IMG/VR virus record: IMGVR_UViG_3300032282_003072
Span: 1-42,428 of that record
Length of the DNA stretch: 42,428 nucleotides
Source: a virus
Direction: 5' to 3' (one strand)
Positions within the stretch are counted from its first letter, which is position 1. Each line of letters opens with the position of its first letter. Shown here piece by piece: positions 3-9,834 of the stretch. The notes under the pieces are model-generated. The model saw only the letters and a list, made by a program, of their open reading frames with translations. It did not search any database and was not told the origin of the DNA. A program made the translations under genes and the position numbers.

Positions 3-79
3 TGGCGCCCTCTGAGCGATTCGAACGCCCGACCCACGGAGTAGAAATCCGTTGCTCTATCCTGCTGAGCTAAGAGGGC
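3..79 (-). tRNA. tRNA-Arg (anticodon UCU)
   Basis: Read on the minus strand, the sequence folds into a full cloverleaf. The acceptor stem is GCCCTCT with AGAGGGC, the anticodon stem ACGGA/TCCGT encloses loop TTTCTAC with anticodon TCT, and the T-loop is TTCGAAT. Discriminator G and CCA are encoded. It reads AGA codons, which are common in these AT-rich phage genes and, as inference, rare in a GC-rich alphaproteobacterial host. It starts only a few bases after the tmRNA coding piece, so both probably come from one precursor. Confidence 0.96.
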
Positions 80-83
80 AAAA

Positions 84-345
84 GGTGGTGGGATTCTGTT
101 TCCAAGTTCCCACCGGACTCATGTTAGGCTGCTAGAGCCAAACGAGATGCATTGTTATCGTTTGCATTTACGAGTTTACTTAGTCTCTTCATACCTTTAC
201 TACAACCCATCGAGCCTATTTCGCCCCCATCATAAACAGACTTGAGGTCGTCAACCTCAATAAAGTGTGACACAATCTGTTTATGGTGGAGGCGTGGGGT
301 ACTGCCCCCCAGTCTGGATCGTCTATTTTATACGCCTCAACAACC
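84..345 (-). ncRNA. ssrA: Permuted two-piece tmRNA (ssrA), alphaproteobacterial type
   Basis: Transfer-messenger RNA frees ribosomes stalled on broken mRNAs and tags the nascent peptide for proteolysis. The gene is circularly permuted. The acceptor piece comes first and ends in encoded CCA at 284. An intervening segment (229-283) follows with inverted repeats (ATAAACAGA/TCTGTTTAT and TTGAGGT/ACCTCAA). The coding piece then starts at 228 with GGGGGCG. GGGGGCG pairs with CGCCTCC of the acceptor piece (7 bp) and places a G-U at the third pair, the alanine identity element. The T-stem is TGGGG/CCCCA with the unusual loop GGCAGTA. The tag frame (165 to 124) reads ANDNNASRLALAA followed by TAA, a normal tag in its AND start and hydrophobic LAA end. 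A 7-bp hairpin (87-93 with 108-114) closes the coding piece. Exact 5' and 3' ends are estimated. Confidence 0.95.
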
Positions 346-358
346 AAGCAATATATTT

Positions 359-386
359 AGTATACTATAATTGTAAGAAAAGTCAA
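359..386 (-). promoter_or_regulatory. Promoter for tmRNA and tRNA-Arg
   Basis: On the minus strand TTGACT (-35) and TATACT (-10) are 16 bases apart, a near-consensus sigma-70 promoter. The predicted start near 352 lies just upstream of the tmRNA acceptor piece. It does not carry the conserved spacer of the early-gene promoters, so these RNAs may be expressed under different control. Confidence 0.8.
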
Positions 387-4313: not shown

Positions 4314-4505
4314 TTAAGCAACAGAGGCGAACGAGACACCACCAGCGGTCATCTCAATCAGGTAGAAGTCAAACTCAACGATCGGGTCAGAGTCAGGGTA
4401 AGCACTGACGTAAGCCTCAGCCTCAGCCCGAGTTGCGAAAGAACCGATAGAATCAGGAAGCTCATCAGAGCCGTAGAACGAACCGTATACAGTGAAGGAA
4501 GTCAT
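4314..4505 (-). CDS. Early microprotein, beta-beta-alpha-beta type, 63 aa
   Basis: Two ATGs occur 6 bases apart; the second (4505) has AGGAGA at proper distance. The layout is strand (TSFTVYGSFYG), strand (DSIGSFA), helix (TRAEAEAYVSAY), strand (IVEFDFYLIEM). It resembles the 57-residue neighbour and the 69-residue protein at 10814-11023 (TVYGDY start). It is the first gene after the promoter at 4533-4561. Confidence 0.7.
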   Translation of the reverse strand: MTSFTVYGSFYGSDELPDSIGSFATRAEAEAYVSAYPDSDPIVEFDFYLIEMTAGGVSFASVA

Positions 4506-4532
4506 AGTCATCTCCTTTTCAACTTATATCCT

Positions 4533-4561
4533 ATTCTACCGTCCGGACTGATTAAAGTCAA
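4533..4561 (-). promoter_or_regulatory. Early promoter, conserved-spacer class
   Basis: On the minus strand TTGACT, spacer TTAATCAGTCCGGACGG and TAGAAT. The spacer core TTAATNNGTCC recurs in about ten promoters of this window. Confidence 0.8.
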
Positions 4562-4564
4562 GGC

Positions 4565-5053
4565 TCAAACGAGAGCCTTGACATCAGCCTTAGAGAGAAA
4601 GCGAGGAGCCTTGAACGACTCAAGCGAGTCAATCATACCCGAAACCTCAGCCCGAGCCTCATCGGCGTCAAAGTCAGCTACGCCTGGTCCTTCCGGACGG
4701 GCGATCTGATTGTATTGCTTAGTCTTAGCTGAAACCGACTTCAACCGAGCCAAATTCGCAGCCTTGATCTTAGCAAGCTCAGAGTCAGGCAACAGAGACT
4801 TAGCAGCTACTTCCTTAGTAGCCTTGACCTTAGCCTTAGCAACGGCCACAGCCTTCACGGGCGACTTAACCGATTTGGCGCCAGTCAGGGCAAGCGTAGG
4901 ATCAGCCTTCACCCGAATTCGGTAGCAGGCATATGCGTTCTTTTCGCTCAGTTCGCACTGCGACATAAGCAGAGGAATAACGTCAACCAGCGAGCGGGTA
5001 GCGTTCGCCTTCAGGACTTCGATCGCGATTTGGGTCTTCGTGAGCTTGGACAT
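4565..5053 (-). CDS. Lys/Ala-rich protein, possibly DNA-binding, 162 aa
   Basis: The N-terminal 55 residues form a helical domain (KTQIAIEVLKANATRSLVDV, CELSEKNAYACYRIRV) seen in similar form in proteins of other large marine phages (from memory). A long low-complexity Lys/Ala/Val stretch follows (about 58-85), then an acidic C-terminal helix region. The basic, alanine-rich middle resembles histone-H1-like tails, so nucleic-acid binding is a reasonable inference. It has its own early promoter at 5085-5113 and a GGAGAA ribosome site. Confidence 0.7.
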   Translation of the reverse strand: MSKLTKTQIAIEVLKANATRSLVDVIPLLMSQCELSEKNAYACYRIRVKADPTLALTGAKSVKSPVKAVAVAKAKVKATKEVAAKSLLPDSELAKIKAANLARLKSVSAKTKQYNQIARPEGPGVADFDADEARAEVSGMIDSLESFKAPRFLSKADVKALV

Positions 5054-5084
5054 TTTTCAGTTCTCCGTTTCAAGTTACAAGATT

Positions 5085-5113
5085 ATTCTACCGTTCGGAC
5101 TGATTAAAGTAAA
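5085..5113 (-). promoter_or_regulatory. Early promoter, conserved-spacer class
   Basis: TTTACT, spacer TTAATCAGTCCGAACGG and TAGAAT on the minus strand, followed by the recurrent leader AACTTGAAACGGAG. Confidence 0.78.
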
Positions 5114-5142
5114 GCCCTAAAAGACAAACGGATCAAATTAAT

Positions 5143-5421
5143 TTATAGAGCCTCAAACGGAAGCTCAGCAAAATCATCAGAACCTAGAGAATCTTCAGTA
5201 GCGATATAGTATACATTAGTAGAGTCAATAATATAGGCGTCACCATCAACACCAACTAAGAAACGAAAACCTTCAGATTCATAAGCATTATATTCATAAT
5301 CATCAGAATATTCATCACCGATAAAGCGCTCAAGCAGAGCAATATCGGCAGCGGTCAACTCAAGCGCAGGAGTAAACTCAACGGCGTTCAGGACGAGGAC
5401 TTCAGCTTCAGAATAGATCAT
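5143..5421 (-). CDS. Acidic hypothetical protein, 92 aa
   Basis: Strongly acidic (many D and E, cluster GDEYSDDYEYNAYESEG at 50-66) and tyrosine-rich. Such acidic early proteins sometimes mimic DNA, which is only a possibility here. It forms a one-gene cassette behind the promoter at 5456-5484. No family recognised. Confidence 0.65.
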   Translation of the reverse strand: MIYSEAEVLVLNAVEFTPALELTAADIALLERFIGDEYSDDYEYNAYESEGFRFLVGVDGDAYIIDSTNVYYIATEDSLGSDDFAELPFEAL

Positions 5422-5455
5422 TTTTTCACCTCAGGTTTCATTCAACTTATAAACC

Positions 5456-5484
5456 ATCATACCTCAGGGACTGATTAAAGTAAA
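5456..5484 (-). promoter_or_regulatory. Early promoter, conserved-spacer class
   Basis: TTTACT, spacer TTAATCAGTCCCTGAGG and TATGAT on the minus strand. Confidence 0.75.
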
Positions 5485-5486
5485 GC

Positions 5487-5678
5487 CTATTCAACTAGAG
5501 CCCAGCAATCAGCTTCAAGAATATAGGATTCAAGATTATCATCAATTAGGATAAGATCGTAACCAGGGTAGAAATCTTCGTTACTATCATTTTCTAGAAT
5601 AAATTCGTACGCCGTTTCAAAATTAAAGCCACGGCCAAGTTCAATTATGTCAGAGTTGAGCTGTGCAATAAGGTTCAT
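5487..5678 (-). CDS. Acidic hypothetical protein, 63 aa
   Basis: A small acidic protein (MNLIAQLNSDIIELG start) with an aromatic, beta-rich second half (YDLILIDDNLESYILEADCW). AAGGAG precedes the start. It overlaps the -35 box of the next promoter at its 3' end, as is usual for these packed cassettes. Function unknown. Confidence 0.62.
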   Translation of the reverse strand: MNLIAQLNSDIIELGRGFNFETAYEFILENDSNEDFYPGYDLILIDDNLESYILEADCWALVE

Positions 5679-5704
5679 CAGTTTTCTCCTTCAGTTCATA
5701 ATTC

Positions 5705-5733
5705 ATTCTACCTCAGGGACTAATTAAAAGAAA
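5705..5733 (-). promoter_or_regulatory. Degenerate early promoter
   Basis: The conserved spacer (TTAATTAGTCCCTGAGG) and TAGAAT are present on the minus strand, but the -35 hexamer has decayed to TTTCTT. It serves the 63-residue gene. Confidence 0.55.
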
Positions 5734-5757
5734 GCCCCCAACCGAAATTATTTCGCT

Positions 5758-5785
5758 TTGAATTTAATCGGTCCTGGGGTATAAT
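5758..5785 (+). promoter_or_regulatory. Plus-strand early promoter facing a gene-free region
   Basis: TTGAAT, spacer TTAATCGGTCCTGGGG (16) and a perfect TATAAT. It has the conserved GTCC spacer and is back to back with the minus promoter at 5705-5733. Nothing coding of credible length lies downstream for almost 300 bases. Confidence 0.72.
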
Positions 5786-6070
5786 TAATGTTGGGTCGGC
5801 GTGATCCTATTGCGAGGGCCAAGTCGTGCGGCACTATAGTGAAGCTTGTGTTGCGCTTTATTGCTCTGTTACTGTGAGGGTTTTATTGTCAAGTTTATGT
5901 TGAACACCAACACAGCAATAGCACACGAGCGACACACGAGCAAAGCAATCGGACAGACCGATGATCGCTCACATTTCTAAAAGGGGATTAAAAATCCCTA
6001 TCAAAAACACCACTATGATAGCCTATACCTATCATGATAACACCTATGATTAACTTCGGTTCAATAGGCA
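5786..6070 (+). ncRNA. Candidate early non-coding RNA region
   Basis: About 285 bases without a credible gene, directly downstream of a strong plus-strand promoter. Hairpins include TGTTG/CAACA (5898-5912), ATCGG/CCGAT (5948-5962), GGGATT/AATCCC (5984-5998) and ATGATAG/CTATCAT (6015-6035). A repeated ACACGAGC motif occurs near 5921-5940. A 16-codon frame starts at 5788 but has no ribosome site. The RNA boundaries are unknown. Confidence 0.4.
5979..6035 (-). terminator. Probable terminator(s) after the 6071-8469 operon
   Basis: On the minus strand the ATGATAG/CTATCAT hairpin is followed after a few bases by GTTTTTG, and GGGATT/AATCCC is followed by CTTTTAG. Both lie just after the last minus-strand gene and could stop its transcription. 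U-tracts are short. Confidence 0.45.
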
Positions 6071-6292
6071 TTACCTATGGCCATAGTATTCATCCCATTC
6101 ATCTAGCGTCGTACCAGTCTTTATGAAGTGACGAGCATTCTTTGACGCTTTTTCGAAGGCTTCTGATAGTAATAGATCACCTCTCATATATGCATTATAG
6201 AGTGTTTCGAATTCTATTTGTTCATACTGGGGCAATTCTATTGTCCTAGGAATATTGTTTATTTGAGACCTTTTGGTAAACACTGCTGACAT
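6071..6292 (-). CDS. Hypothetical protein, 73 aa
   Basis: A helical, mildly acidic protein (RTIELPQYEQIEFETLYNAY) ending DEWDEYYGHR. It is the last gene of the minus-strand operon that starts at 8469 and has only a weak ribosome site. No family recognised. Confidence 0.6.
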   Translation of the reverse strand: MSAVFTKRSQINNIPRTIELPQYEQIEFETLYNAYMRGDLLLSEAFEKASKNARHFIKTGTTLDEWDEYYGHR

Positions 6293-6500
6293 AGTTGGTC
6301 CGAAAGTTGGTATTAAAGTTGGTAGCCAAAATCTACTTGGTCCGAAGGTTGGTCAGTAGGATTGGTAGCGTAGTTGGTAGCGGAGCTTATGAAGTTGGTA
6401 GCGTTGTTTGGTGCCAGAGTAAAATTTAGTTGGTAGTGGAGTTGGTCAACTGTGATTGCCTGAATCAACTCTGGTTGTAGTTGGTTCATCTGGTTGTCGG
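6293..6500. repeat. Cluster of about twelve GTTGGT-type motifs
   Basis: On the plus strand GTTGGT or a one-base variant recurs at about 12- to 20-base intervals, for example AGTTGGTCC, AAGTTGGTAT, AAGTTGGTAG, AGGTTGGTCA, TAGTTGGTAG and GAGTTGGTCA. All copies are in the same orientation. They overlap the 72-residue gene, whose C-terminal half becomes rich in T-N pairs as a result. Confidence 0.7.
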
Positions 6501-6531
6501 CGAGTGTTCTTAATTGTATTACATTACTCAT
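6313..6531 (-). CDS. Thr/Asn-rich hypothetical protein, 72 aa
   Basis: The start overlaps the stop of the upstream gene (ATGA), which supports translation. The N-terminal half is helical and Gln/Leu-rich. The second half (ATNFISSATNYATNPTDQPS) is a low-complexity product of the GTTGGT motif cluster read on the other strand. The coding function may be secondary to the DNA repeats. Function unknown. Confidence 0.5.
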   Translation of the reverse strand: MSNVIQLRTLADNQMNQLQPELIQAITVDQLHYQLNFTLAPNNATNFISSATNYATNPTDQPSDQVDFGYQL

Positions 6532-6704
6532 CGGATATCCCTATATTCTATGATGCAGTCTGGGTGAATCTTCTCAAACTCTACTATCGCCCGCATCGCG
6601 GCGCCATATGTAGGGTAAGTCTCTCTAAGGAATATCTGCTTGTTATTCCTTATCGTTACAGCGTGGGTGTTCTTGTCCTTCTTAATATTCTTCTGATCTA
6701 TCAT
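6528..6704 (-). CDS. Early microprotein, beta-beta-alpha-beta type, 58 aa
   Basis: The reading frame starts at 6704 behind GGGAGA and overlaps both neighbours by 4 bases. The layout is basic N-terminus, strand (HAVTIRN), strand (QIFLRETY), helix (YGAAMRAIVEFEKI), strand (CIIEYRDI). It aligns with the 61-residue protein just upstream, which ends TIEFRDM, so the two are probably tandem paralogues. Confidence 0.65.
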   Translation of the reverse strand: MIDQKNIKKDKNTHAVTIRNNKQIFLRETYPTYGAAMRAIVEFEKIHPDCIIEYRDIR

Positions 6705-6886
6705 GAACGTCTCCCGCTGCTGTAATAGTTCATGTCTCGGAATTCAATAGTGTATCCGCTATCGTTCTTGATGTTCTCGTCCTCAACAATATCTAACATA
6801 TCTAGCGCCTCCATATAGTCGCCAAATGTGTATCGCTTGACTATCCTGTTTCCCTTCATTACCGTAATCTCATATATCTTTGACAA
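6701..6886 (-). CDS. Early microprotein, beta-beta-alpha-beta type, 61 aa
   Basis: Strand (YEITVMKGN), strand (RIVKRYTF), helix (DYMEALDMLDIVEDE), strand (YTIEFRDM). It is the likely paralogue of the next gene and separated by one base from the upstream 70-residue gene. Function unknown. Confidence 0.65.
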   Translation of the reverse strand: MSKIYEITVMKGNRIVKRYTFGDYMEALDMLDIVEDENIKNDSGYTIEFRDMNYYSSGRRS

Positions 6887-6887
6887 T

Positions 6888-7100
6888 CTAGTCTCCTATA
6901 TCAATGGCACTCGGGACAGGCAACTCTTCTACCTCAACATACTTACACTTGTCGCGCTTGTCAATTACACTCGCCCAATGATCTGCTGAAACTCTATCGT
7001 GGAAATAATCATAACATGTCTCTGAATCCCAGTCGCCGTTCCTATCCCGAAAATACTCAATCCAGGATACTCTATACTTATATGGCTTCGGTAAATTCAT
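6888..7100 (-). CDS. Hypothetical protein, 70 aa
   Basis: Opens with a strand (YKYRVSWIEYF), then an acidic aromatic loop, a helix (RVSADHWASVIDKRDK) and a strand (KYVEVEELPV). This resembles the beta-beta-alpha-beta layout of neighbouring microproteins. The start overlaps the previous stop by ATGA. No family recognised. Confidence 0.65.
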   Translation of the reverse strand: MNLPKPYKYRVSWIEYFRDRNGDWDSETCYDYFHDRVSADHWASVIDKRDKCKYVEVEELPVPSAIDIGD

Positions 7101-7387
7101 AATGCCCTCGCTAATTCCTTGATGTGGTTGGCTCGCTCAGCAAATTGACACGCCACATATCCCATAACAGAAGCTCGAACTACTCGCTCCTTGCCGTCAG
7201 GTGAAGCGTATGCAGTCAGATTGAACCCAGAAGTCGAAAAGGAAGTGCTCTCATGACAATATGTATATGCCATGGATATCATAAACTCTCTCAAATCCTC
7301 CCAGCTGTCGTAACTCTCGCGAACAGATACGTTCATAATATATACAGCCTTCGCCGTGTACTCAAAATCGTGCTCGTCGATTCTCAT
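7097..7387 (-). CDS. Hypothetical protein, 96 aa
   Basis: A mixed alpha/beta protein with the central segment WEDLREFMISMAYTY and an aromatic-serine stretch (HESTSFSTSGFNLTAY). Both ends overlap neighbours by 4 bases, so it is translationally coupled within the AAA+ operon. Function unknown. Confidence 0.65.
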   Translation of the reverse strand: MRIDEHDFEYTAKAVYIMNVSVRESYDSWEDLREFMISMAYTYCHESTSFSTSGFNLTAYASPDGKERVVRASVMGYVACQFAERANHIKELARAL

Positions 7388-7623
7388 GCAGCTCTCCTTA
7401 CCGAAGGTGTTTCGCTATGCAGCAGTCCGTCAACTACGTCGTCCATATGTATTACTCTAAACGGGAATCGCTTATCGCTCGTCGATAAACAAAACTCGTC
7501 CTTACTCATCCAACTCTTCCTTGGGAGAATCTCTCCCGTGTACATGTCATATGCCTTGACGTGATAGGCAACTAAATGTCGCCTATCATATTGTCGGTTG
7601 CGAACTCTGACTGAGATAATCAT
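7384..7623 (-). CDS. Basic hypothetical protein, 79 aa
   Basis: A basic N-terminus (MIISVRVRNRQYDRRH) is followed by a beta-rich part with GEILPRKSW. It follows the AAA+ ATPase gene by 9 bases and may work with it. No family recognised. Confidence 0.6.
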   Translation of the reverse strand: MIISVRVRNRQYDRRHLVAYHVKAYDMYTGEILPRKSWMSKDEFCLSTSDKRFPFRVIHMDDVVDGLLHSETPSVRRAA

Positions 7624-7632
7624 ATGCCTATC

Positions 7633-8469
7633 CTATCGACAACACGTCACGTTTGCCAGCTTTTCCCAGTTCGAACCCTGCTTACGCAAACTGCCAATCT
7701 TAAGCGCCATGCGAAGGCTCAACTCACGCAGCCGCTCGCTGTTGCCCTCAATATAAGCAACTACCTCATCACGCTGCGCTGGCGTCAAATCCGACAGCAG
7801 TCCCTGCTTGATTACCTGACGGATGCGAACCAAATAGTCACGGCGTGTCTTCATGGCAAGGTCAATATAATGGCTACGAGAAACCAGTGCCTGAAGATGA
7901 GGCGCCAGTCGGTGGCCTCGGTCAATCATGGCGTCGAAATCGTAGTTGCTGATAAAGATAATCGTACCCTCGAAATCAAAAGTACGGGGAACCAACTCAG
8001 CACTCTCGTCGTCAACCAGCTTGCCCTCGGACAACCAACTAACACGGCGTCGCTCAGTCGTATCACATACCGCCTTGAGCAAGTTAAGGCTGACGTCATC
8101 GAAGAAAATGGCGTCGGCGTCGTCGAAAACGATAACACTATTCTCGTGACGGTAATGATACAAAAGCTTCACAAGGCCAGTGGCGCGAACGTAACCCTTG
8201 ACGATGATATGATTGGCGCCCTCTGGGTCCCACTGAGCCAGGCGCTTCTCTACCGTGAAGCTCTTGCCCAACCCAGCGGGACCAGACACGATCAAGGCGC
8301 GAGCATTACCTACTACGCAAGCCTCGGTCAGTGTATCAAGAATATCAAAACGCTCGCCGATGCGTGCGTCAACCTCAGCATCCGTCTCGCGGGTAACTGG
8401 CTCATAATTTACACGCACCGGAGAAAACTTCTCGGCTCGTTGCTTACGTACATATTGACCCTTTGGCAT
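7633..8469 (-). CDS. AAA+ ATPase
   Basis: The 278-residue protein has a Walker A motif (GPAGLGKS, about 64-71), a Walker B motif (VIVFDDAD, about 112-119), a sensor-1-like IIFISNYD and a C-terminal helical lid. A basic N-terminal tail (MPKGQYVRKQRAEKF) precedes the core. Similar single-domain AAA+ proteins occur in early regions of large phages; the substrate is not known, though the organisation resembles loader or remodelling ATPases. It heads an operon running to 6071, behind the promoter at 8496-8524. The ATG has GAGGAGAT upstream. Confidence 0.85.
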   Translation of the reverse strand: MPKGQYVRKQRAEKFSPVRVNYEPVTRETDAEVDARIGERFDILDTLTEACVVGNARALIVSGPAGLGKSFTVEKRLAQWDPEGANHIIVKGYVRATGLVKLLYHYRHENSVIVFDDADAIFFDDVSLNLLKAVCDTTERRRVSWLSEGKLVDDESAELVPRTFDFEGTIIFISNYDFDAMIDRGHRLAPHLQALVSRSHYIDLAMKTRRDYLVRIRQVIKQGLLSDLTPAQRDEVVAYIEGNSERLRELSLRMALKIGSLRKQGSNWEKLANVTCCR

Positions 8470-8495
8470 ATTACATCTCCTCAGTTCATAATCTA

Positions 8496-8524
8496 ATAAT
8501 ACCCCAGGGACTAATTAAAGTCAA
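8496..8524 (-). promoter_or_regulatory. Early promoter for the AAA+ operon
   Basis: TTGACT, spacer TTAATTAGTCCCTGGGG and TATTAT on the minus strand. Confidence 0.78.
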
Positions 8525-8733
8525 TCGCCGTCGTCGAGATAATTCTCGTCGTCGCTCCATCGGCTCTCGGGGTATAGATAGAGCTCAAGGCACGCCACGG
8601 CGTCGGCTACTGCCGTAAGAGCGTGCGCCTCCTCAGATCCAGGCTCGGCTCCCATTAGCCTATGACAGACCGACAAGAGCTCGCGATTCAGCCGCTGGAT
8701 GTCAACAACCATCTGTACCCGATCAACGATCAT
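8521..8733 (-). CDS. Hypothetical protein, 70 aa
   Basis: Two predicted helices (VQMVVDIQRLNRELLSVC and SEEAHALTAVADAVACLELY) and a very acidic C-terminus ending DDENYLDDGD. It overlaps the 74-residue gene upstream by 11 bases. Function unknown. Confidence 0.65.
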   Translation of the reverse strand: MIVDRVQMVVDIQRLNRELLSVCHRLMGAEPGSEEAHALTAVADAVACLELYLYPESRWSDDENYLDDGD

Positions 8734-8947
8734 TCTGTGCCTCCTCGAGCTCTCTCTCTTCGGCTTCTACCTGAAGCTCTTCGAAACGTTGAAGATACAA
8801 CTGAGCCAGAACAGCCAGACGGTGCATCGCTCGGTCCTCGTCTCCGCTGTCTATATCGTTGATAGAAGACATATCTTCTAGTGCGTTCAAACAATCCTTG
8901 AAAGCCAAGGCAGTGTTATAGAAACGGCAGTAGGACATATTAGCCAT
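8723..8947 (-). CDS. Conserved phage protein with MANMSYCRF start, 74 aa
   Basis: The start is set at 8947, where it overlaps the upstream stop (TAATG) behind AGGAGA. The first residues, MANMSYCRFYNT, are the hallmark of a small protein family found in very many unrelated phages (from memory). The rest is helical and acidic. Its function has not been established to my knowledge. Confidence 0.78.
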   Translation of the reverse strand: MANMSYCRFYNTALAFKDCLNALEDMSSINDIDSGDEDRAMHRLAVLAQLYLQRFEELQVEAEERELEEAQNDR

Positions 8948-9150
8948 TATGCATTCTCCTGTTCTTGAAAGGACTGACATACATCAACCAGATACTTCTC
9001 TGCCGTTGGGTAGCGCAGAGCCTGACTGATTACTACCTTAACGCCACCAGCGTGTGTGATTCGGTTAATCTCCTCGCACACACAGTAGAGTGTATAACCA
9101 TCAATCTCTGGGTGACGGTCGAGGAATTCATGAACGAGGGAACGAGACAT
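8947..9150 (-). CDS. Hypothetical protein, 67 aa
   Basis: A small mixed protein (VHEFLDRHPEIDGYTLYCVC) with a helix-strand pattern. It is the first gene behind the promoter at 9180-9208 and is coupled to the MANMSYCRF gene. No family recognised. Confidence 0.65.
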   Translation of the reverse strand: MSRSLVHEFLDRHPEIDGYTLYCVCEEINRITHAGGVKVVISQALRYPTAEKYLVDVCQSFQEQENA

Positions 9151-9179
9151 CTTTGGCTCCTTTCATCAACTTATAACCA

Positions 9180-9208
9180 AGTATACCCCACGGACTAATT
9201 AAAGTCAA
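9180..9208 (-). promoter_or_regulatory. Early promoter, best match to consensus
   Basis: TTGACT, spacer TTAATTAGTCCGTGGGG and TATACT on the minus strand, followed by leader GGTTATAAGTTGATGA. Confidence 0.82.
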
Positions 9209-9642
9209 GCCTCCATCAAGATCGGTACAGGCTTGAAGTACGGGCGACCTCGCTCGGCGTAAGTCCACTCCTTGCCGTCGTAAAGATAGAAGAAGTCGCA
9301 GTCGCTGTAGTGGCTACGGAATGCCGTGGCGTCAGCGAAGTCCTTAGCAGGGCAGTTCTCGCTCCGATCACGACCGTAGGCGGTAGTCATCTTACCGTAC
9401 GCATCATCATAAGCCTGAGGACTCAGATTAGTCATATGACAAGAGAACGGATGCTTAACACCAAGCTCCTCGCCAAGCGAAGAGATATCGCCAAGCTCTA
9501 GCAGATCTAGCAGCTTATACGTGTCGTTGTAGTGCTTGACTAGCGTAGCTCCTACGCCCTCGAGATAGCCATCCCAGTGGCAATAAACTGCGGTAATAGA
9601 TCCGTCATACTCAACGAAGCCGATAGCGGAACGAGTAGCCAT
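9205..9642 (-). CDS. Conserved phage protein with MATRSAIG start, 145 aa
   Basis: The start at 9642 has GGAG upstream and begins MATRSAIGFVEYDGSITAVY, followed by CHWDGYLEGVG and LLELGDISSLGEE. These are the signatures of a widely distributed phage protein family of unknown role (from memory). Aromatic residues are frequent, and the C-terminus YLYDGKEWTYAERGRPYFKP is also typical. It lies 2 bases after the 53-residue gene. Confidence 0.82.
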   Translation of the reverse strand: MATRSAIGFVEYDGSITAVYCHWDGYLEGVGATLVKHYNDTYKLLDLLELGDISSLGEELGVKHPFSCHMTNLSPQAYDDAYGKMTTAYGRDRSENCPAKDFADATAFRSHYSDCDFFYLYDGKEWTYAERGRPYFKPVPILMEA

Positions 9643-9644
9643 GA

Positions 9645-9806
9645 TTATTCTCCATCCTTGGGGGCACGCACTTCCCATGCGGCGATCAGAGCCTCATAGT
9701 TAATGTCGTAGGGCAGGTTCATACGGGACAAATCCTTCAGAAACTGGATCTTGTCCCAAACGGTCTCAAGCTCGTCAAACGCATCAAAGATGAACTGCTT
9801 ATCCAT
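9645..9806 (-). CDS. Hypothetical protein, 53 aa
   Basis: The start at 9806 follows GGAGAAACAAA. The upstream in-frame codons are only the translated leader (YNLKRRNKM), which is nearly the same at the 10760 gene. The protein is acidic and helical (FDAFDELETVWDKIQFLKD). Function unknown. Confidence 0.65.
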   Translation of the reverse strand: MDKQFIFDAFDELETVWDKIQFLKDLSRMNLPYDINYEALIAAWEVRAPKDGE

Positions 9807-9834
9807 TTTGTTTCTCCGTTTCAAGTTATAAGTA

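Follow-up and report, generated by a model that had tools for sequence, protein, structure and literature searches.

The tmRNA locus

The DNA analysed here (the window) comprises the 42,428 bases of one IMG/VR virus record. It is a fragment of a T4-like phage. Its DNA polymerase shows ~51% identity to those of marine T4-like phages, and other genes code for UvsX, a DnaB-type helicase, a primase and thymidylate synthase. On the minus strand, at 84-345, it carries a circularly permuted two-piece tmRNA gene with the following layout, given from the promoter onwards.

359..386, minus strand: sigma70-like promoter TTGACT-16-TATACT, 5' of the acceptor piece (sequence match)
284..345, minus strand: acceptor piece with the helix-2 5' strand, the T-arm, the CGCCUCC acceptor strand, the discriminator A and an encoded CCA (sequence, cmscan)
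229..283, minus strand: intervening segment (IVS), a cassette of 55 nt whose ends pair as an outer helix, UAAACAGA/UCUGUUUA, prolonging the acceptor stem, with inner hairpin UUGAGGU-UGACG-ACCUCAA (fold; cluster common to L014, L104 and L113)
84..228, minus strand: coding piece with the GGGGGCG acceptor 5' strand (G3-U70), the helix-2 3' strand, the tag frame and a terminal hairpin; no pseudoknot 1 (sequence, cmscan)
124..165, minus strand: tag frame ANDNNASRLALAA-stop (ARAGORN; identical tag DNA in 17 viral contigs)
87..114, minus strand: terminal hairpin GGUGGGA-ACUUGGAAACAGAA-UCCCACC, of which the loop is the alpha_tmRNA consensus and the stem differs (cmscan and locus comparison)
3..79, minus strand: tRNA-Arg (UCU), 4 nt downstream of the tmRNA and probably co-transcribed (ARAGORN; in tandem in many relatives)

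A preliminary description of this DNA had proposed that the phage carries a circularly permuted tmRNA of the two-piece, alphaproteobacterial type, and had named a search with the alpha-tmRNA covariance model as one check. The proposal was confirmed. ARAGORN places a permuted tmRNA with the tag ANDNNASRLALAA on the minus strand at 33-376. With cmscan (Infernal) the alpha_tmRNA model RF01849 gives 115.9 bits (E 4e-31) at 84-390, matched over all 355 model positions, and the tmRNA_permuted model RF04321 gives 106 bits at 124-345; both scores are more than twice their own cut-offs of 50 and 47. The acceptor piece precedes the coding piece, as described, and the two form a 7-bp acceptor stem in which G3 (226) pairs with U (290), the G3-U70 pair of alanine. 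The proper tag frame is also there, and the tag ends in a tail of the proteolysis type. Missing from the description were the downstream tRNA-Arg(UCU) and the structured IVS, and the IVS is the more unusual part.

The close relatives are metagenomic contigs throughout, sampled via sequence patterns. Of 60 distinct relatives, 40 have a sigma70-like match upstream of the gene and 35 have a TATAAATA-like core. The G3-U70 pair is retained in all 152 distinct phage acceptor/IVS combinations, and compensatory acceptor stems occur, GGGGGUG/CACCUCC (16) and GGGCCGG/CCGGUCC (1); alanine charging is therefore probably under selection in the phage genes. SmpB was found in none of 17 related phage records, so the phage tmRNA presumably relies on host SmpB. 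As the preliminary description suggested, the phage copy may replace or outcompete the tmRNA of the host.

The gene lies less than 400 bases from the contig end, where a pseudogene or an assembly artefact might be suspected. This is at variance with the dozens of independent contigs, some 100-216 kb long, that have the gene intact, and with the frame, the acceptor stem and the G-U pair, which are all retained in relatives. Judged from these relatives the suspicion is already refuted, and we give it practically no weight.

Loss of pseudoknot 1

The gene resembles alphaproteobacterial two-piece tmRNA (RF01849) in the permuted order, the acceptor-stem G-U pair, the tag start ANDN and the loop of the terminal hairpin. 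It differs in two deletions, of pseudoknot 1 and of ~47 nt after the stop codon, and these are the main cause of the short coding piece to which the preliminary description had drawn attention. Pseudoknot 1 is usual in bacterial two-piece tmRNA, but it is not strictly needed for membership of the class.

The distance from the start of the coding piece to the tag is 63 nt in the window. It is 62-69 nt in 73 of the 103 viral loci whose tag could be read, and 83-87 nt in 44 of 45 bacterial loci. The stretch missing from the phage form corresponds to the bacterial pseudoknot-1 sequence, roughly CGGYAUGRUACCRCCGUUAUCGG, and the cmscan alignment is gapped there. A strict pattern for the short form, without pseudoknot 1, matched none of 385 alphaproteobacterial genomes, and a long-form pattern matched 163 of the same 385. 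A degenerate pattern for the tag, ANDNNASxLALAA, had no match in 84,980 bacterial and archaeal species genomes. The earlier suggestion that the gene was taken from an alphaproteobacterial host is thus plausible for the lineage, but the two negative searches argue against a recent transfer. As far as these patterns tell, the tmRNA gene without pseudoknot 1 has a phage lineage of its own, and the loss throughout this lineage makes it a natural minimal two-piece tmRNA.

Another phage form, with a tag distance of 80-87 nt (e.g., L206, L343), was also seen, in which pseudoknot 1 is seemingly replaced by a hairpin of the GACUAUCGGAGGCGAGCGCGUGAUAGYC type.

Exchange of the intervening segment

Phage IVSs are longer than those of bacteria (median length 85 nt compared with 36) and have a long outer helix. 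They are also very diverse, and 39 unrelated IVS clusters were found in 71 related phage genes. Identity between the inner IVSs of these 71 genes is bimodal and uncorrelated with the identity of the coding pieces (r = 0.06). For 42 bacterial genes the corresponding correlation is r = 0.51, i.e., the bacterial IVS drifts along with its gene.

One explanation for such diversity would be that the IVS is an unconstrained loop which drifts fast, so that differences accumulate as point changes and indels, and shared versions reflect common ancestry. Bacterial alpha tmRNA IVSs do drift, and the inside of the phage cassettes has on average little structure, as such a loop should. However, the identity of phage IVSs is all-or-none, with few pairs at 0.65 to 0.85. 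Where the coding pieces of two distinct genes are 95% identical or more, the IVSs are unrelated in 59 of 71 pairs. Three pairs of phages with closely matching surroundings of the gene also differ in the IVS: L022 and L107 have unrelated IVSs between flanks (700 nt on each side) that are 97.4% and 98.4% identical; L048 and L106 have unrelated IVSs, flanks of 97.1% and 97.6% and a coding piece identical at 100%; and the IVSs of L006 and L012 differ between flanks of 97.3% and 95.6%. The converse is also seen. In the pairs L039/L102, L007/L016 and L100/L101 the inner IVS is identical (100% for the first two pairs) and the flanks cannot be aligned. In addition, the same cassette families are found in a second phage RNA, ncRNA2, described below. 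The flank comparisons in both directions refute drift as a full account, and we regard it as very improbable.

The cassette of the window behaves in the same way. It recurs in L014 and L113. A version at 88% identity occurs in L104, where the tag is different, the coding piece is 81% identical to that of the window and the flank cannot be aligned. One locus, L236, has two tandem cassettes with a partial start of the coding piece in between, and is apparently a recombination product. It should be noted that single cases could be assembly artefacts; the same combination of tmRNA and cassette was, however, recovered from separate metagenomes (L011, L015, L018), and for that combination a chimeric assembly cannot be the explanation. 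Taken at the sequence level, the comparisons demonstrate that cassette replacement in phage tmRNA genes is precise.

A second RNA carrying the cassettes

When the core of one cassette was used as a query, two loci outside tmRNA genes matched. Both matches fall in a hairpin loop; the hairpin, GGTTGTTTCTTC...AGAAACAAC, heads a previously undescribed phage RNA that lies just upstream of tRNA arrays and is here called ncRNA2. This RNA is present in 25 contigs, and its loop is as variable as the IVS, with a minimal hairpin in L277 and L288 and tRNA-like inserts in L278 and L280. The tmRNA and ncRNA2 loci share at least three cassette families (F004, F006, F036). One phage record of 107,889 bases (L014 and L164) has the cassette family of the window in its tmRNA and F004 in its ncRNA2. 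A third site is an additional hairpin upstream of the tmRNA in L239. Within the window, no second cassette and no ncRNA2 copy was found.

Some further features of ncRNA2 can be described. It is ~200 nt long and closed by CUUAUUAGG/CUCCUAAUAAG (L163 at ~8458-8660, L164 at ~4448-4645, and L271-L293). It is itself a mosaic, with internal hairpins swapped and two alternative upstream modules. The tRNA-like cassettes of L278/L282 and L280/L283 have in common a 5-bp GUCGU/ACGAC stem, a UCGCGU loop and a T-arm, and have diverged elsewhere. On the T4-like phage contig L164, ARAGORN finds 26 tRNA genes at 4650-9807, covering most amino acids.

Structure of the cassettes

The outer helix is 7 bp or longer in 82 of 86 cassette clusters, compared with 21 of 58 bacterial IVSs and 3% of shuffles, a count that is biased by one sampling pattern which picked cassettes ending GTGTATCTTTGAT and so favoured one type of outer helix. 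The insides of the cassettes only slightly exceed shuffled sequence in stability (median z over all clusters -0.56), so many of them may be unconstrained. The family to which the cassette of the window belongs is small, and covariation inside it is weak.

Two families are different. F054 has 27 pairs with 100% of cells paired and double changes in 9 of the 27, and an invariant 6-base complementarity between its loops. F004 has a cloverleaf-like shape and 33 pairs, 99.7% paired, with 7 double changes compared with 1.5 in shuffles, although a single divergent sequence (L165/L270) supplies most of its inner compensatory changes. The covariation identifies at least these two families as conserved structured RNAs, and the pairing patterns as a whole establish constraint at the RNA level on the outer helices and on F054 and F004. 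Since internal structure is weak and ORFs are barely enriched across the clusters, neither of the two families should be generalised to the rest.

Two candidates for a general content of the cassettes were rejected. An origin of all cassettes from tRNA T-arms does not hold, as T-arm motifs were counted in 5 of 87 clusters, compared with a mean of 1.7 in shuffles, which leaves a subset only. A micro-ORF as the general payload fares no better: a complete ORF of at least 20 codons is present in 12 clusters compared with 9.2 in shuffles, and one with a Shine-Dalgarno sequence in 2 compared with 0.7. Plausible by eye are an RBS-like motif and small ORF in the L002 IVS (e.g., MEKVQAYLLFTMLFFLGMYLLIY), the L024 IVS and the Melnitz IVS (L341 46079-46219).

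Related systems

The nearest described case is the isolated phage Melnitz, which has the same kinds of genes as the source virus. Like the window it is T4-like, with a permuted alpha-type tmRNA, a promoter upstream of it and a tRNA-Arg(UCU) in the genome. Its IVS of 151 nt has an outer helix, TAAACACTT/AAGTGTTTATGAT, of the same type as in the window. It differs in a glutamine riboswitch downstream, at 46398-46446 and outside the IVS; with the riboswitch model RF01739 the window gave no match, and Melnitz, the positive control, did. The two-piece tmRNA of Melnitz and other marine phages is already published, in a work that counts 53 two-piece forms among 133 distinct tmRNA structures of phage genomes (PMC9004378), and a tmRNA database of 2025 holds 79 sequences from phages (PMC11915505). 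A phage with a permuted tmRNA was thus already known. What appears new is the phage lineage without pseudoknot 1 and the exchangeable IVS cassette. We found no report of IVS exchange in tmRNA, in a literature coverage that is incomplete, so novelty is not proven; it is absent from the passages of PMC9004378 that were consulted. In a blastn search, sequenced phage isolates yielded nothing closely similar to the tmRNA, to the four cassettes tested or to ncRNA2.

Permuted tmRNA genes with a long helical IVS are present in two other cultured phages, RcSimone-Hastad of Rhodobacter capsulatus and Cp1R7A-A1 of Mesorhizobium loti. Since both grow on laboratory hosts, the role of the cassettes can be tested in culture. 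Their tmRNA loci (RcSimone-Hastad, L343 611-1024, MW677525; Cp1R7A-A1, L342 616-1025, MT188704) are unannotated in the stretches examined.

Two kinds of mobile element invite comparison. The promoter-stem-loop mobile cassettes of T4-type phages are intergenic regulatory units. They resemble the IVS cassettes in being small, non-coding and shuffled among T4-like genomes, but they lie between genes and the IVS cassettes lie inside structured RNA genes. The other kind is the 23S-rRNA-type intervening sequence, which is excised by RNase III. The bacterial 23S rRNA IVS, e.g., that of Coxiella, is described as a selfish element that has inserted, like the cassettes, into one helix of a structured precursor RNA (PMC4990558). 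The cassettes are likewise sporadic, exchangeable hairpin inserts at the stem tip of a structured RNA. They are much shorter, sit in two unrelated phage RNAs, tmRNA and ncRNA2, instead of 23S rRNA, and form dozens of unrelated families with only the pairing ends in common.

A model for cassette exchange

We consider it quite probable that the gene encodes a working, phage-adapted two-piece tmRNA of a lineage without pseudoknot 1, in which the IVS is a docking site for exchangeable cassettes that move to and from ncRNA2. The model postulates that host tRNA-processing enzymes cleave a single transcript at two points, the acceptor CCA and the 5' end of the coding piece. The resulting pieces would then pair and be charged with alanine via G3-U70, and the tmRNA would bind host SmpB and add ANDNNASRLALAA to stalled proteins. 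The IVS, lost in maturation, would be the docking site for hairpin cassettes of ~50-150 nt. We infer that phage recombination, acting through the conserved acceptor stem and the pairing ends of the cassette, lets a new cassette take the exact place of an old one, and that cassettes travel to and from the loop of ncRNA2 and may be released as functional RNAs.

What the cassettes are for can be answered in two ways, which we hold to be about equally likely, each with a chance somewhat short of even. They could be selfish hairpin insertions like the 23S rRNA IVSs, harmless at the tips of stem-loops through processing or looping and of no benefit to the phage. Their positions at stem tips in tmRNA, in ncRNA2 and in the additional hairpin of L239, the minimal hairpins of L277 and L288 and the tandem double cassette of L236 would all fit. 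Against this, no mobility enzyme was identified, and the loop conservation and stem covariation in F054 and F004 speak for selection acting on the cassettes themselves, although selection for mobility would look alike. The cassettes could instead be functional RNA payloads, e.g., decoys for host defences that cut tRNA or tmRNA, released by tmRNA maturation and diversified by an arms race. The covariation and invariant loop complementarity of F054, the cloverleaf-like F004, the tRNA-like cassettes of L278 and L280 and the high diversity of the clusters speak for this. Against it, the payload has no known target, T-arm motifs are confined to few clusters, mean internal structure is weak, and no Rfam family was found in the cassettes or ncRNA2 at the loci scanned (E up to 2-5).

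The payload alternative can tentatively be taken one step further, to a proposal which we find rather doubtful: that aquatic T4-like phages share a pool of small structured RNA cassettes with two carriers, the tmRNA precursor and ncRNA2. The carriers would set the cassettes free as functional RNAs or present them as such, and the maturation of tmRNA would be the step that frees them. If true, this would be a modular phage RNA payload system. Independently of this proposal, the data show that no part of the tmRNA gene is exchanged more actively than the discarded precursor segment, and that the same cassettes occur in another phage RNA. What was presumed to be a spacer thereby becomes a candidate vehicle for small RNAs, or else a place where mobile hairpins are safely lodged.
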